Part shown: positions 32,749 through 40,181 of the stretch, piece after piece
Layout of the letters: the number at the start of each line of letters is the position of its first letter
Numbering within the stretch: the stretch's first letter is position 1
From: Allosalinactinospora lopnorensis
GTDB lineage: Bacteria > Actinomycetota > Actinomycetes > Streptosporangiales > Streptosporangiaceae
Reading direction: 5' to 3'
NCBI RefSeq assembly: GCF_000981225.1
Contig: NZ_LAJC01000044.1
Location: 1 to 47,251 of the forward strand
DNA length: 47,251 nucleotides
Program-made: the position numbers and the translations under genes
The notes under the pieces: model-generated
What the model was told of the DNA's origin: nothing
The model's input: only the letters and a program-made list of their open reading frames with translations
Databases searched by the model: none

Positions 32749-33834
32749 ATGGCATCCCCGAGCCACGAATGGGGTGAGGCTCTGCGCGCCACGCCCCGGC
32801 ATCTGTTCGTGCCCGACACCGCTTGGACCACCCAACACGGACTGACCGACCGCAACGCCGATCCGGACACCTGGTGGTCCACGGTGAACAGCGACAGCGC
32901 GATCGTCACCCAGATCGACGACGGCGCCACCGAACTGACCAACGAATCGCCGTGGAGGACCATCAATCACACCAGTTCGTGCTCGGCGCCGAGCATGGTG
33001 TTCGACTTTCTGGGGTTGCTGGCCCCCTACCCCGGCGACCGGGTGTTGGAGATCGGTGCCGGAACCGGGTGGACCGCCGCCCTGCTCTCAGCCCGCCTCG
33101 GCTCGGACAAGGTCACCACGGTCGAGGTGGACGAGCAGGTCGCCAAGCAGGCAGCGGCGAACCTGGAGCGCGCCGGGTATTCCCCGACCCTGGTCGTAGG
33201 CGATGGCGCCCATGGTTGGCCCGAGAACGCCCCATACGACCGCGTGCACGTCACCTGCGGCGCGGTCACCATCCCTTACGCGTGGGTGGAGCAGACGCGC
33301 CCCGGCGGGGTGATCGCACTGCCATGGATGCACGGCGCGCTCGGCGCTGGACACAAGGCCACGCTCACTGTGGCCGGTGAACAGGCCATCGGGCGGTTCC
33401 ACAGCGAGTGCGCCTACATGATGCTGCGCGCCCAACGCCCTACGCACCCCCCGATCGAAGGCGAAGCGCGCGAAAGCACACCTCGGGTAGACCCGCGGCG
33501 GCTCTCCCGCGCCGGGGACGGGCTGCGGCTCGCACTGGCGGGGATGCTGCCCGGGGTGTCCCTCAACGGCGCCGACCACCCCGGCGGTTCCCACCGGCTG
33601 GCCCTGCGTCACCTGCTCAGCGAGTCCCACGCCCTCGCGGTCCATTCCGGCGAGGGAGGGGACGCCGAGGTGACCCAGCGCGGCCCCCGCGACCTGTGGA
33701 GCGAGGCGGAGGCGGCCTACCTGGCGTGGGCGGGGTGGGGCGAACCCGGCCGGGGCCGCTTCGGCCTCACCGTCACCCCCAACGGCCAGCATGTTTGGCT
33801 GGACCGACCCGGCAACCTCCTTGGGCAGGTGTGA
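32749..33834 (+). CDS. Protein-L-isoaspartate O-methyltransferase-like protein
   Basis: A 361-residue PIMT-type SAM methyltransferase. PIMT-like start: WGEALRATPRHLFVPDTAW. Then TSSCSAPSMVFDFLGLL (the PIMT SQP-like substrate segment), SAM motif I RVLEIGAGTGWTAALLSARLG (about 98-117), acidic motif VTTVEVDEQVAKQAA, PYDRVHVTCGAVTIPYAWVEQTRPGGVIALPW, and an extra C-terminal domain of about 130 residues (AEAAYLAWAGWGEPGRGRFGLTVTPNGQHVWLD). Repair PIMTs are about 210-230 residues; this longer form resembles the PIMT homologues that modify ribosomal peptides. Its stop is directly followed by the ATG of a 41-codon Cys4 gene. Four kilobases downstream, the lasso operon encodes a second such enzyme. 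Confidence 0.8.
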   Translation: MASPSHEWGEALRATPRHLFVPDTAWTTQHGLTDRNADPDTWWSTVNSDSAIVTQIDDGATELTNESPWRTINHTSSCSAPSMVFDFLGLLAPYPGDRVLEIGAGTGWTAALLSARLGSDKVTTVEVDEQVAKQAAANLERAGYSPTLVVGDGAHGWPENAPYDRVHVTCGAVTIPYAWVEQTRPGGVIALPWMHGALGAGHKATLTVAGEQAIGRFHSECAYMMLRAQRPTHPPIEGEARESTPRVDPRRLSRAGDGLRLALAGMLPGVSLNGADHPGGSHRLALRHLLSESHALAVHSGEGGDAEVTQRGPRDLWSEAEAAYLAWAGWGEPGRGRFGLTVTPNGQHVWLDRPGNLLGQV

Positions 33835-33960
33835 ATGGGCAAGCACGGTAAGGAGCAGGACTGCGGAATGTGCGGCGGCAGCGGCATGGCCACCATCGTC
33901 AACGACGGAAAGCGTGCAGAACGCCCGTGCGTAGGATGCCGGGGCACTGGCAAGGTCTGA
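33835..33960 (+). CDS. 41-residue Cys4 (DnaJ-like CxxCxGxG) microprotein
   Basis: The ATG at 33835 abuts the methyltransferase stop (TGAATG), so translation is coupled. The peptide has two zinc-knuckle halves of the DnaJ type, CGMCGGSG and CVGCRGTG, joined by MATIVNDGKRAERP, and ends at TGA 33958-33960. Four Cys in CxxC pairs suggest one bound zinc. It may be a small partner protein of the methyltransferase; the Asn-Asp-Gly in the linker also makes it a conceivable methyltransferase substrate, which is speculation. Similar tiny Cys4 proteins occur widely in actinomycetes (recollection, not searched). A strong terminator follows. Confidence 0.7.
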   Translation: MGKHGKEQDCGMCGGSGMATIVNDGKRAERPCVGCRGTGKV

Positions 33961-36427: not shown

Positions 36428-36568
36428 GTGCAGGAATCGACAACGCCCCCCTATGAGCCCCCGATGGTGGTCGAGGTCGGCGACTTCACCGAGATCACAC
36501 GGGGTCAGTACGCCTCCGAACACGCCGACGACGGTGACGGCGCCGGGTACTGGTCACAACCAGTCTGA
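36428..36568 (+). CDS. Lasso peptide precursor (A)
   Basis: A 46-codon gene, GTG 36428 to TGA 36566-36568, with AAAGG seven bases before the start. The leader (residues 1-25) contains the YxxP motif that lasso RRE proteins bind, as YEPP at residues 9-12, and ends ...FTEITR with Thr at position -2, the residue the B2 protease needs. The core (residues 26-46, 21 residues) begins GQYASEHAD: Gly1 for the isopeptide bond and Asp9 as acceptor, giving a nine-residue ring. Two Asp-Gly dyads follow (core 10-11 and 12-13), and a tail with Tyr16-Trp17 that could plug the ring and ends SQPV. Downstream genes encode cyclase, RRE, protease and a PIMT-like methyltransferase in the expected order. Processing and ring size are inferred. 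Confidence 0.88.
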   Translation: MQESTTPPYEPPMVVEVGDFTEITRGQYASEHADDGDGAGYWSQPV

Positions 36569-36581
36569 GGTCTGCGAGCCA

Positions 36582-38309
36582 TTGTTTCCCTCACCCGGGC
36601 GTGGCGGTTGGTGGCTTGCGCTGCCGGACGCCGCCGCGCCCGCTATCGAGCAACAGCCCGACTGGCCGGTCATCGCCCGGCATCCCTCGGGCCGCCCGTG
36701 GCTCCTCGGCGAGCTGGCCACCCCCGTTCTCACCGCCGCGGCTGGTCCTGTGATAGCCGCGGCGATCGGTGACGTACTCGCCGAACCGCAGGAGTTCGTC
36801 GAACTCCTACGCCGGGCAGTCGAGCATCGAGACTATGACCCCTTGATGACTCTTCCCGGTAGCTACCACTTCGCCGTGAGCGAGCCAGGGCGCATGCTCG
36901 CCTATGGCGACGCGGCCGGTCTGCGCCGTCTCTACACCACCCGCTACGGGCGTGCGACGGTTGTCAGCGATCGGGCGCGCGTGCTCGCCGACCTGCGCGA
37001 GGCCAAGGTCGACCCGGTGTGGATGGCCGCGCGGATGTGCACCCCGGCGGTACCCGTTCCGGTTCGCCAGACACATAGCCCGTTCGAGGCCGTCACCCCG
37101 GTTCCGGCCGGGTACCGGGTCGAGATCGCTGACGACCAGGTGCCACGCACCGCCCGGTACTGGCATCCCCCGCCGGCCGAGTCCCCATTGCGGGAGGGGG
37201 CCGTCGGGTTGCGGACGGCGCTTGAGGGCGCGGTCGCTGACCGGGCGCATCGCAGCGGTGGCCCGGTCACAGTCGAGCTATCTGGCGGGCTCGATTCCGC
37301 AGCGCTGGCCGCACTGGCCGTGAGCGCAGTCGGCGCCGATGGTGTCCGCCTGGTGACGACCCCGTCCGCGGCCAGCGGTGATCTACCGTGGGCGTGCCTG
37401 GTCGCCGACCACCTCGGCGCATGGCACGACGTGCTCGACCACGCCCCGCCCTTGTTCGCCGGCCTTCCCGGCATCGTCCCGCACGGCAGCGATGAGCCGC
37501 CCGCTGCAGTGGGTGCGGCTCGCATCGCGCATACCGCGCGCACCCTGGCCCGGAGCCGACTGCACCTGAACGGTCAAGGCGGCGACGAGGTGATCGGGGC
37601 CCCGCTGGCGAATCTGGGGCCGCTGCTGCGCGAGCGGCGACGCGGGGTGGTGCGGCGCCTACGCGGATACGCCGCACTGTACGCCACCTCAGCCGTGCGG
37701 CTTGCCCGGCACGCTCTTACCGAACAGCCGTACCAGCGGTGGCTACAGGAGGCGGCCGAGGCCTTCGACGTCGAGGTCGGCCCGATCCGGGACGCAGTGT
37801 CGTGGCAGGCCCACCCGCGGCCGATGCCATGGGCGAGCCGACATGCCCGGCACCTGGTCGCCGGCGCCCTAGTAGAGACCGCGCCGGAGCCATGGGGCGA
37901 CCGGCCCACTCATGCCGCTCTTGCGCGGGTGCGGACCTCGGCCGCGGCGGCGGCCACCTACGGCCAGGCCATGGCCGAGCTCGGCGGGCCGGTTCCGGTG
38001 TTCCCGTTCTTTGATCGGGCGGTCATCGAAGCGTGCCTCGTCGTCCGGCCATGGGAGCGCGCGGACCCGTGGGTGTTCAAGCCGTTGTTGGTCGAGGCGA
38101 TGCGCGACGCGCTTCCCGAGGCGCTGCTCGCCCGCACCACCAAAGGGTCTTATACCCCCGACATACATCGGGGGTGGGCGCAGCACCGGAGAACGGTGCT
38201 CGACCTGGTGCGTTCCCCGCTGCTCGCCGAGTTCGGGCTGGTCGAACCGGCGATCCTACGCCGGGCGCTCACCGGGTGGGGCGCGGCCGGTCTTCCGCCA
38301 GCCATGTGA
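36582..38309 (+). CDS. Lasso peptide cyclase (C), asparagine synthetase-like
   Basis: A 575-residue ATP-dependent macrolactam synthetase. The N-terminal part is a degenerate glutaminase-like domain lacking the catalytic Cys (WWLALPDAAAP ... PGSYHFAVSEPGRMLAYGDAAGLRRLYTTRYG ... VSDRARVLA). The synthetase domain has the PP-loop SGGLDS at 234-239 and LNGQGGDEVIG near 335, which bind ATP and adenylate the acceptor Asp side chain. C-terminal FFDRAVIEACLVVRPWERADPWVFKPLLVEAM and TKGSYTPDIHRGW are typical of lasso C proteins. The TTG start at 36582 is the first start codon after the precursor stop; GAGG lies 11 bases upstream. It forms the isopeptide between core Gly1 and, as predicted, Asp9. Confidence 0.9.
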   Translation: MFPSPGRGGWWLALPDAAAPAIEQQPDWPVIARHPSGRPWLLGELATPVLTAAAGPVIAAAIGDVLAEPQEFVELLRRAVEHRDYDPLMTLPGSYHFAVSEPGRMLAYGDAAGLRRLYTTRYGRATVVSDRARVLADLREAKVDPVWMAARMCTPAVPVPVRQTHSPFEAVTPVPAGYRVEIADDQVPRTARYWHPPPAESPLREGAVGLRTALEGAVADRAHRSGGPVTVELSGGLDSAALAALAVSAVGADGVRLVTTPSAASGDLPWACLVADHLGAWHDVLDHAPPLFAGLPGIVPHGSDEPPAAVGAARIAHTARTLARSRLHLNGQGGDEVIGAPLANLGPLLRERRRGVVRRLRGYAALYATSAVRLARHALTEQPYQRWLQEAAEAFDVEVGPIRDAVSWQAHPRPMPWASRHARHLVAGALVETAPEPWGDRPTHAALARVRTSAAAAATYGQAMAELGGPVPVFPFFDRAVIEACLVVRPWERADPWVFKPLLVEAMRDALPEALLARTTKGSYTPDIHRGWAQHRRTVLDLVRSPLLAEFGLVEPAILRRALTGWGAAGLPPAM

Positions 38310-38376
38310 CCGACCTCGCCGCCCTCGAACTGTGGGCGCGTACCGTCCACACCGAGTCTGCAAGGGAGACCGCGGT

Positions 38377-38640
38377 ATGACCGTACTCGCCCCCCATGTG
38401 ACCCTCACCCCCACCAACGACGGCGCGATGCTGCTCGATGAGCGCACCGGCCGTATGTTCCACCTCAACCGCTCCGGCTACGAGGTGCTGACCGCCATGC
38501 TCGACGGCGGCACCGATGCAGCGGCCACGCGACTGTGTGACCGCTACGGCATCGACGATGACCGGGCCTGGCGCGACGCCGAAGCCGTGCTCACCGACCT
38601 GACCACGCGCGGGCTCATCACATCGGAGACGGCTACGTGA
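38377..38640 (+). CDS. Lasso peptide RRE protein (B1), PqqD family
   Basis: An 87-residue PqqD-like winged-helix protein: VTLTPTNDGAMLLDERTGRMFHLNRSGYEVLTAMLDGGTDAAATRLCDRYGID...VLTDLTTRGLI. This RiPP recognition element binds the leader, contacting the YxxP motif, and presents the precursor to the protease and cyclase. AAGGGAG ends eight bases before the ATG at 38377. Its stop overlaps the GTG of B2 (GTGA at 38637-38640), so the two halves of the split B enzyme are made together. Confidence 0.92.
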   Translation: MTVLAPHVTLTPTNDGAMLLDERTGRMFHLNRSGYEVLTAMLDGGTDAAATRLCDRYGIDDDRAWRDAEAVLTDLTTRGLITSETAT

Positions 38641-39056
38641 GCCCGCAGGTCGTGCTGCGACGCCCCTCCGCCCTCACCGTGGGGGCCCGTGTACTCGGGT
38701 GCGTGGCGGTCGCCGCGGCCCGGCTGCTCCTGGCCATGACCCGAGGACGGCCGGTGCGCATCCGCCGCATCCTGCGCGCCCTGCTCGCCGGAGTGCCCCC
38801 GGCGACCCCTGCAGCGGCCGAGGCCGCGCACGCCGCCGTGGTCACCGTCAGTCTGCGGTGCGCGAGCCCACATGGGTGCCTGCCGCGGTCGGTGGCGGTT
38901 GCGCTGCTGTTCCGCATGCGCGGCGCCCGAGTGCGGTGGGTCGTCGGGGTCTCTTCACCCCCACCGGCCTCGCACGCGTGGGTGGAAACGACGGACGGGC
39001 CCGTCGTCGAACCCGACGACCCCCGAGCGACCTTCACACCGGCGATCACGATCTAG
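38637..39056 (+). CDS. Lasso peptide leader protease (B2), transglutaminase-like
   Basis: A 139-residue cysteine protease of the lasso B2 type. Residues 70-120 hold the active site: SLRCASPHGCLPRSVAVALLFRMRG with nucleophile Cys81, SHAWVE with His113, and an acidic partner in GPVVEPDDP. The N-terminal helical region (LTVGARVLGCVAVAAARLLLAMTRG) is usual for the family. It cuts the leader after residue 25 of the precursor, where Thr is at -2, freeing Gly1 for cyclisation. It starts with GTG overlapping the B1 stop. Confidence 0.92.
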   Translation: MSPQVVLRRPSALTVGARVLGCVAVAAARLLLAMTRGRPVRIRRILRALLAGVPPATPAAAEAAHAAVVTVSLRCASPHGCLPRSVAVALLFRMRGARVRWVVGVSSPPPASHAWVETTDGPVVEPDDPRATFTPAITI

Positions 39057-39068
39057 GGGGACCACCAG

Positions 39069-40181
39069 GTGACCGCAGCACCCGACCAGATGACCGAGCG
39101 GCTCCGCCGCTACGCCGACGCGCTACGCCGCCAGGGCGCCATCACCACCGACGCCGTGCACCGCGCGTTCGCCACGGTCCAGCGGCACCACTGCGTGGAG
39201 GCGTTCTACTACCGCGGCGAGCGCTACGGCGTTCCCCAGGACTCGCCTCCGCCCGACGAGGTGCTCGGCATCATCTACAGCGACGCCTCGTTGCTCACCA
39301 TCATGCCCAGCCGCTCCGACGAGCCCGCATCATCCTCCAGCGCGCCCACGATCATGGGCCCCATGCTCGAAGAACTCGACCTCTCCCCGGGCATGCGGGT
39401 CTTGGAAATCGGGGCCGGCACCGGGTACAATGCGGCGCTCATCGCGACCATCACCGGGGCCGAGGTCGTCACCGTTGAAGCGGGTGATGTCGCTGCGGCC
39501 GGTGCTGCGGAATCCATCCGCCGGCTCGGCATAGATGATCTGGTTCGCGTGGTCTACGCCGACGGCTACGGCGGGCCGACCGCCGAGTCCGGACGCTTCG
39601 ACCGGATCATCGTCACCGTTGGCATCGCCGGCATCCCACCGGCCTGGTTCGACCGGCTCACCGACGACGGGCTGATCCTCGCCCCCATCGCGCACGGCGG
39701 GATGCACCCGACCATGGCAATGCGCCCCGGCAAAACCGTCTATCCCCGGTTGTGGTCGGACTTCATGACCGCCGTCGGCCCGCTGCGCCCACCCGAGGCC
39801 AGTGGCCGCCCCGGCGCCAAAATCACCGGAGAGCCCGGCCACCTCCCCGAGGTGTTTCCCGCCCTGGAGACCGGTGCCTACAACGACCTGTGGTTCTACC
39901 TCGGCGCGAACGATTCCCGCACCACCCGCGCCTACCTCGACCATCCCGAGTTCGACCCCTGGGGCGGGTTCTGCGCCATCGTCACCGAGGACCACCGCGC
40001 CGCATGGGTGCGCCGCGACGGCTCCGTCCTGCACACCGATTCCGCTCTCGGCACTGAGGCCGCCCGCTTCGCATCGGCCTGGTATGAGACCGGTTGCCCA
40101 ACGCTGCGGCGGTGGCACGCCGAACTCCGGCCGGCCTTCGCCGCAGAATCCCTGCTCGTCCCCACCAACTGGCAACACTGA
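39069..40181 (+). CDS. Lasso-associated PIMT-like O-methyltransferase (aspartimide-forming type)
   Basis: A 370-residue SAM methyltransferase related to protein-L-isoaspartate methyltransferase. The N-terminal part (VHRAFATVQRHHCVEAFYYRGERYG) is followed by SSSSAPTIMGPMLEELDLSPGMRVLEIGAGTGYNAALIATITG with SAM motif I at 111-119, acidic motif VVTVEAGD, and RFDRIIVTVGIAGIPPAWFDRLTDDGLILAPIAHGG. A C-terminal extension of about 170 residues is not present in repair PIMTs. PIMT homologues encoded last in lasso operons are known to methylate a core Asp, which then collapses to an aspartimide (cellulonodin, lihuanodin). Here the two Asp-Gly dyads of the core are obvious candidate sites. GTG 39069 is 12 bases after the B2 stop. 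Confidence 0.9.
   Translation: MTAAPDQMTERLRRYADALRRQGAITTDAVHRAFATVQRHHCVEAFYYRGERYGVPQDSPPPDEVLGIIYSDASLLTIMPSRSDEPASSSSAPTIMGPMLEELDLSPGMRVLEIGAGTGYNAALIATITGAEVVTVEAGDVAAAGAAESIRRLGIDDLVRVVYADGYGGPTAESGRFDRIIVTVGIAGIPPAWFDRLTDDGLILAPIAHGGMHPTMAMRPGKTVYPRLWSDFMTAVGPLRPPEASGRPGAKITGEPGHLPEVFPALETGAYNDLWFYLGANDSRTTRAYLDHPEFDPWGGFCAIVTEDHRAAWVRRDGSVLHTDSALGTEAARFASAWYETGCPTLRRWHAELRPAFAAESLLVPTNWQH

Follow-up and report, generated by a model that had tools for sequence, protein, structure and literature searches.

Two aspartimide-bearing lasso peptides, cellulonodin-2 and lihuanodin, have been characterised, and both are modified in the ring (PMC13001092). According to the accessible part of that paper, to which all citations of it here refer, a ring Asp is methylated on the threaded peptide and closes to an aspartimide, and a Thr at the following position (n+1) steers hydrolysis to Asp, which prevents hydrolysis to isoaspartate (isoAsp) and unthreading of the lasso. 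Lee et al. 2023 (PMC10787088, likewise accessible in part) predicted further lasso precursors accompanied by homologues of protein isoaspartyl methyltransferase (PIMT), and these were named group 2 by Zhu and Link 2026 (PMC13001092). In the accessible text of both papers, group 2 lassimiditides are known by prediction, as lasso operons with a PIMT homologue and a conserved Asp predicted in the loop. Here we describe such an operon in Allosalinactinospora lopnorensis. It occupies positions 36428-40181 of the window, by which we mean the whole 47,251-nucleotide stretch analysed (contig NZ_LAJC01000044.1, positions 1 to 47,251). With a probability of roughly 0.65, we read it as a group 2 aspartimide lasso-peptide ('lassimiditide') operon, in which the ring is closed at core Asp9 and Asp10 is methylated and converted to an aspartimide. 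The operon adds a member to a group already predicted in print (PMC10787088, PMC13001092).

Gene content of the window operon

The five genes and the codons discussed below are as follows; counts of cores refer to the fifteen related operons of the next section, and RRE stands for RiPP recognition element (RiPP, ribosomally synthesised and post-translationally modified peptide).

36428..36568, + strand: lasso precursor, 46 residues; leader 36428-36502, core 36503-36565 (GQYASEHADDGDGAGYWSQPV), stop codon 36566-36568
36527..36529, + strand: codon of core Asp9, expected ring acceptor (Asp in 15/15 cores)
36530..36532, + strand: codon of core Asp10, predicted methylation and aspartimide site, with Gly11 at n+1
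36536..36538, + strand: codon of core Asp12, rival site (Asp in 14/15 cores)
36582..38309, + strand: lasso cyclase of asparagine-synthase type, about 575 residues; start codon uncertain
38377..38640, + strand: PqqD-type RRE, leader-binding protein, 87 residues (lasso_PqqD_Strm and PqqD models)
38637..39056, + strand: B2 leader protease, 139 residues (lasso_biosyn_B2 above cut-off)
39069..40181, + strand: PIMT homologue with C-terminal extension, 370 residues (PCMT above cut-off, trees, predicted structure)
40080..40100, + strand: WXXXGXP motif read in the sequence (WYETGCP, residues 338-344 of the methyltransferase)

The precursor starts with GTG, has 46 codons and reads ...YEPP...FTEITR followed by the core GQYASEHADDGDGAGYWSQPV. 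The leader/core boundary in lasso precursors is located by the Thr(-2) rule, and it was set here by this rule and by alignment to 14 related cores. YxxP, Thr at -2, Gly1 and Asp9 were all found as the sequence-only reading had described them. Its assignment of a cyclase, a PqqD-type RRE, a B2 protease and a 370-residue PIMT homologue on one strand likewise agrees with the coordinates, the spacings and the domain models. The precursor stop is followed after 13 nucleotides (nt) by a TTG at 36582, taken as the cyclase start; 67 nt separate cyclase and RRE, RRE and B2 overlap by 4 nt, and 12 nt lie between B2 and the methyltransferase. Scores above cut-off were obtained for the precursor with NCBIfam lasso_leader_L3 (36.9 bits, cut-off 19), the RRE with lasso_PqqD_Strm (77.8 bits, cut-off 70; Pfam PqqD also matched), B2 with lasso_biosyn_B2 (84.1 bits, cut-off 33), the cyclase with Pfam Asn_synthase (109.5 bits, cut-off 21) and the methyltransferase with Pfam PCMT (96 bits, cut-off 20.3); the last passed no NCBIfam cut-off. 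All five genes are open and full length. A lasso leader precursor, a cyclase, an RRE and a B2 protease, the set by which a lasso operon is recognised, are thus present together. The operon had also been called complete: this holds for its five biosynthetic genes, but no transporter gene lies in it (no model search aimed at ABC transporters was made).

Fifteen operons of the same layout and their cores

The order precursor, cyclase, RRE, B2, methyltransferase was found in 15 operons, the one in the window and 14 elsewhere. With the B2 protein as query, 93 of 297 genomes from the order gave matches, and the best 30 loci were tested for the methyltransferase. Besides the window, three of these 30 (in G054, G206 and G270) carry a close methyltransferase homologue adjoining B2, and a locus in G130 was added from later searches. 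A contig scan with a four-sequence alignment was also performed, from which the best 80 of 559 relatives were kept; among these, tblastn matched methyltransferase, cyclase, B2 and precursor together in ten. Two of the ten duplicate G206 and G270, leaving eight new operons, and a plasmid search brought two more, for a total of 15 with the window. L040 and L055 denote one locus, as do L043 and L057, and each locus was counted once. Excluded from the counts were L049 (Frankia, upstream region without lasso genes), L054 (B2 and methyltransferase only), L105 (partial) and L053, L058 and L059, whose upstream regions are ended by a contig edge. RREs were found in all 15 operons, 11 by tblastn (window included) and four by Pfam PqqD. 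Among the named hosts are Prauserella, Amycolatopsis, Actinoalloteichus, Streptomyces, Actinomadura and Bailinhaonella. Plasmid records carry three of the operons (Prauserella muralis, Prauserella marina and Streptomyces flavofungini), and there the precursors are annotated as 'lasso RiPP family leader peptide-containing protein'. A chance neighbourhood was rejected on the shared gene order of the 15 operons.

The cyclases of the 15 operons form one clade, apart from 21 methyltransferase-free cyclases (Shimodaira-Hasegawa-like approximate likelihood ratio test, SH-aLRT, 99). In this quick tree without bootstrap, a single branch separates each of the three sets, the 2 group 1, 15 group 2 and 21 methyltransferase-free sequences, from the rest (SH-aLRT 100, 99 and 98). 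The group 2 parts of the cyclase tree and of the methyltransferase tree split into the same two halves, and the simplest reading of the two trees is that the operons descended as a cassette. The enzyme appears to be rare. Among 396 genomes sampled across the phylum only the window's own methyltransferase was recovered at E <= 1e-70, and among 341 genomes of the family five group 2 enzymes including the window's were recovered at E <= 1e-100, the next match being at 1.7e-50; these are rough figures, since both searches scored 4-5 candidates per genome. Viral contigs scanned with the methyltransferase gave no relative.

An ungapped comparison of the 15 cores (14 distinct, those of L051 and L052 being identical) showed Gly1, Asp9, Asp10 and Tyr16 in all of them. 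Position 17 is always Tyr, Trp or Phe, while position 11 is Gly in six cores, Ser in nine and Thr in none. As a control, 23 methyltransferase-free lasso loci were read, of which 18 had a recognised precursor (the others being L161, L163, L166, L170 and L175, with L166 and L175 ending at contig edges); an Asp-Asp pair occurs in none of these 18 cores and Asp10 in one (L165). Lasso rings comprise 7-9 residues. Asp9 closes the ring in both characterised relatives (PMC13001092) and is the expected acceptor here; Asp10, the first residue of the loop, is therefore the likeliest site of methylation and aspartimide formation, with Asp12 as its rival. The sequence-only reading had placed the modification on Asp9, which should instead be spent in ring closure. 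Provided that Asp9 closes the ring, the cores carry the highly conserved Asp in a putative loop that characterises group 2.

Methyltransferase lineage, predicted pathway and competing explanations

In a 38-row tree, ten lasso-operon methyltransferases formed one clade (99/99). In a 56-row tree, the 13 lasso-operon enzymes included clustered with L049, L053, L054 and L058 at 92/80, on a branch that was not starred. The 208-residue PIMT of the same genome (L001) and six other paralogues tested fell outside the lasso-operon group; L001 is a long branch, and the trees were built without a surE-pcm set. The check for clustering with housekeeping repair PIMTs, proposed when the operon was first noticed, thus placed the 370-residue window enzyme with the lasso-operon enzymes, suggesting that it is not of housekeeping type; a repair-type identity was rejected on these trees. 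WXXXGXP has been described as a motif of RiPP-associated PIMT homologues (PMC13001092), and 13 of the 15 lasso-operon enzymes have it exactly. The window enzyme combines the features of a lassimiditide gene, namely a PIMT homologue with a C-terminal extension and WXXXGXP within the operon. Its AlphaFold2 model had a mean predicted local distance difference test score (pLDDT) of 92.2. The top solved match was the PIMT of Thermotoga maritima (PDB 1DL5), which is not a RiPP enzyme, with almost the entire length aligned (Foldseek E 2.7e-20, 23% identity, template modelling scores 0.54/0.63); the root-mean-square deviation of 8.9 angstrom indicates a difference in how the domains are placed or in the C-terminal domain. 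Two close pairs gave ratios of nonsynonymous to synonymous substitution rates (dN/dS) near 0.19 and 0.26, and the ratio was about 0.55 between the window and L039, a value at high divergence that was not used as evidence. The sister enzymes are mostly single genes of Micromonosporaceae. Five full-length PIMT homologues of that family (L060, L062, L063, L064 and L067; 37-41% identity to the window's) are the nearest kin of the group 2 enzymes, and no lasso genes were seen in these five loci.

Gene content, motifs, conservation and phylogeny are observed, and from them the chemical steps, the site and the threading are predicted. The RRE would bind the leader and the B2 protease would cut after Thr-Arg. 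The cyclase would link Gly1 with the Asp9 side chain to form a threaded ring of nine residues, followed by a Gly-rich loop at about positions 10-15, with Tyr16/Trp17 probably serving as plugs. The PIMT homologue would then methylate the Asp10 side chain on the folded lasso, and attack of the Gly11 amide on the methyl ester would yield the aspartimide. Monoisotopic masses calculated for the predicted products are 2190.888 Da for the lasso, 2204.904 Da for its methyl ester and 2172.877 Da for the aspartimide ([M+2H]2+ 1096.451 for the lasso and 1087.446 for the aspartimide); an isoAsp form would have the same mass as the lasso. The end product may be an aspartimide, an isoaspartate or both. The suggestion that the operon makes a lasso peptide carrying one of the two, with an unrecognised core, stands as the best reading, as a prediction.

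Several observations weigh against this pathway. No product has been seen. The top NCBIfam model of the cyclase, macrolact_Ik_Al, scored 241 bits, below its cut-off of 300. The two enzymes without an exact WXXXGXP (L057 and L156) are off by one residue. In the 56-row tree the lasso label requires five changes, because rows such as L049 and L054 sit among the lasso-operon enzymes. L054 (Streptomyces graminilatus) has B2 and the methyltransferase, precursor and cyclase not being found there, and in L049 (Frankia sp. EI5c) the region upstream of a group 2-like methyltransferase is without lasso genes; both may be remnants, or the enzyme may serve another purpose there. Because the 15 operons are related to one another, part of the agreement among their cores reflects common descent. 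Three of the 15 cyclases are interrupted as deposited, that of L046 by a frameshift near the end, that of L050, from a metagenome-assembled genome, also by a frameshift, and that of L083 by a stop; the methyltransferases beside them are open, and sequencing error or decay may account for the interruptions. These cyclases and the lack of a transporter in the operon would fit an operon that is silent or decayed and gives no product, but the five intact window genes make this the least probable of the explanations considered.

The most serious competitor keeps the same pathway but has Asp12 methylated, or either Asp used. Asp12 is present in 14 of 15 cores, and in the window it is followed by Gly13; Asp-Gly is prone to aspartimide formation. 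Residue 13 is Ala, a less reactive neighbour, in 13 of the cores, and L039, whose methyltransferase is the nearest to the window's (61% identity, a 100/100 pair in the 56-row tree), has Thr12, for which reason Asp10 is preferred. This preference rests on one sequence, and L039 also has Asn13-Gly14, Asn-Gly being itself prone to succinimide formation, a further point to be held against Asp10. We consider the use of Asp12 unlikely, though well ahead of the remaining alternatives. Methylation of another carboxylate, such as the C-terminus, would leave a stable methyl ester. C-terminal methylation occurs in some lasso peptides. A methyl ester is moreover the first intermediate of PIMT chemistry (PMC13001092), but the enzyme is of PCMT type, akin to enzymes whose described target is an Asp side chain, and the 15 cores differ at their C-termini in both length and sequence whereas Asp10 is constant, making this very improbable. 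About as little credit is due to a repair-type PIMT that happens to adjoin the lasso operon and acts on aged proteins. The PCMT domain, the solitary Micromonosporaceae genes, which showed no lasso genes beside them in six inspected loci, and the lack of any cyclase or B2 match in L060-L088 would suit it; yet in all 15 operons the gene follows B2, its tree agrees with that of the cyclase, its product has the C-terminal extension, and a separate short PIMT is encoded in the genome. Methylation of Asp10 in the loop thus remains our preferred reading.

Cellulonodin-2 and lihuanodin share with the operon the ring acceptor Asp9, a PIMT homologue with WXXXGXP and the type of leader and B2/RRE, but their modified Asp6 lies in the ring within DTAD, whereas the window core has EHAD at residues 6-9, a predicted site outside the ring and Gly rather than Thr at n+1 (Gly or Ser across the group). 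A weak second B2 match in G073 and in G017 led in both to an operon with core GAADDDTADMNTAKYY and DTAD at 6-9, the position described for cellulonodin-2 (PMC13001092). A single clade of the DTAD-type methyltransferase and the group 2 enzymes was rejected (approximately unbiased, AU, test, p-AU 2.3e-05, with long branches), the group 1 enzyme compared being that of DTAD operon L176 rather than the published TceM or LihM. Membership of the operon in group 1 was rejected on this test and on the lack of D(T/S)AD at 6-9. The parallel first drawn with the cellulonodin and lihuanodin clusters therefore holds for a PIMT homologue in a lasso operon, but not for the core motif or the enzyme lineage. 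Since the DTAD-type methyltransferase falls elsewhere in the tree, PIMT homologues were probably recruited into lasso operons twice. Albusnodin-type clusters resemble the operon in that macrolact_Ik_Al belongs to the albusnodin/ikarugamycin family; the precursor matched lasso_albusnod weakly (20.7 bits, cut-off 30), and no acetyltransferase was seen in the operon.

A group 1 cluster and other PIMT homologues in the same genome

A group 1 (DTAD) operon is present in the same genome on contig C53 (L178, G000:C53:5000-17000), with core GSAAHDTADTNVARYN, a cyclase, B2 and a 347-residue methyltransferase. Two lasso B2 matches were detected in the genome at E <= 0.01, one for each cluster, and 20 PCMT matches at E <= 0.001. 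A second PIMT homologue lies in the window at 32749-33834 (+ strand; TIGR04188 273 bits, below its cut-off of 380). It is directly followed by a 41-residue open reading frame (ORF; 33835-33960, + strand) in which Asn-Asp-Gly separates two CxxCxGxG motifs. Paired CxxCxGxG marks cysimiditides, or type II pamtides (PMC13001092), and the pair of genes at 32749-33960, 2.5 kb upstream of the lasso precursor, is likely of this kind. Three PIMT homologues of the genome adjoin such a peptide, the other two being L179 (G000:C41) and L180 (G000:C56). Upstream of a further PIMT homologue, at L185:2991-4702 (G000:C25), lies an ORF that by eye resembles an ATP-grasp ligase, perhaps marking a graspetide cluster.

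The neighbourhoods of 13 of the 15 lasso operons were compared, and no further widely common gene family was found; one extra family, a regulator, occurs in four of the 13. The comparison recovered cyclase, methyltransferase and B2, its size and score filters missing most RREs. A scan for promoters and terminators gave nothing useful and a tRNA scan found none.

No purified loop-site aspartimide lasso peptide was found in the literature searched, most subscription papers lying outside its coverage. With the predicted site lying beyond the ring, a Thr at n+1 should not be needed to keep the peptide threaded, and opening to isoAsp would only lengthen the loop; Gly or Ser at n+1 in all 15 cores fits release from the Thr constraint of the DTAD peptides. 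For the same reason the enzyme could drive Asp to isoAsp without unthreading. We tentatively propose, at somewhat under even odds, that the product is a loop-site lassimiditide in which Asp10 becomes isoAsp with the lasso kept threaded, leaving a beta-linked residue at the ring-loop junction, and that the two recruitments reached opposite solutions, a Thr-guarded ring and an unguarded loop site, both held in one genome. Whether ring protection is the purpose of the Thr rule could be tested with a loop-site family that has Gly or Ser at n+1. A genome encoding both types would allow two apparently independent recruitments to be compared in the same host, and bears on the question of what the aspartimide is for.

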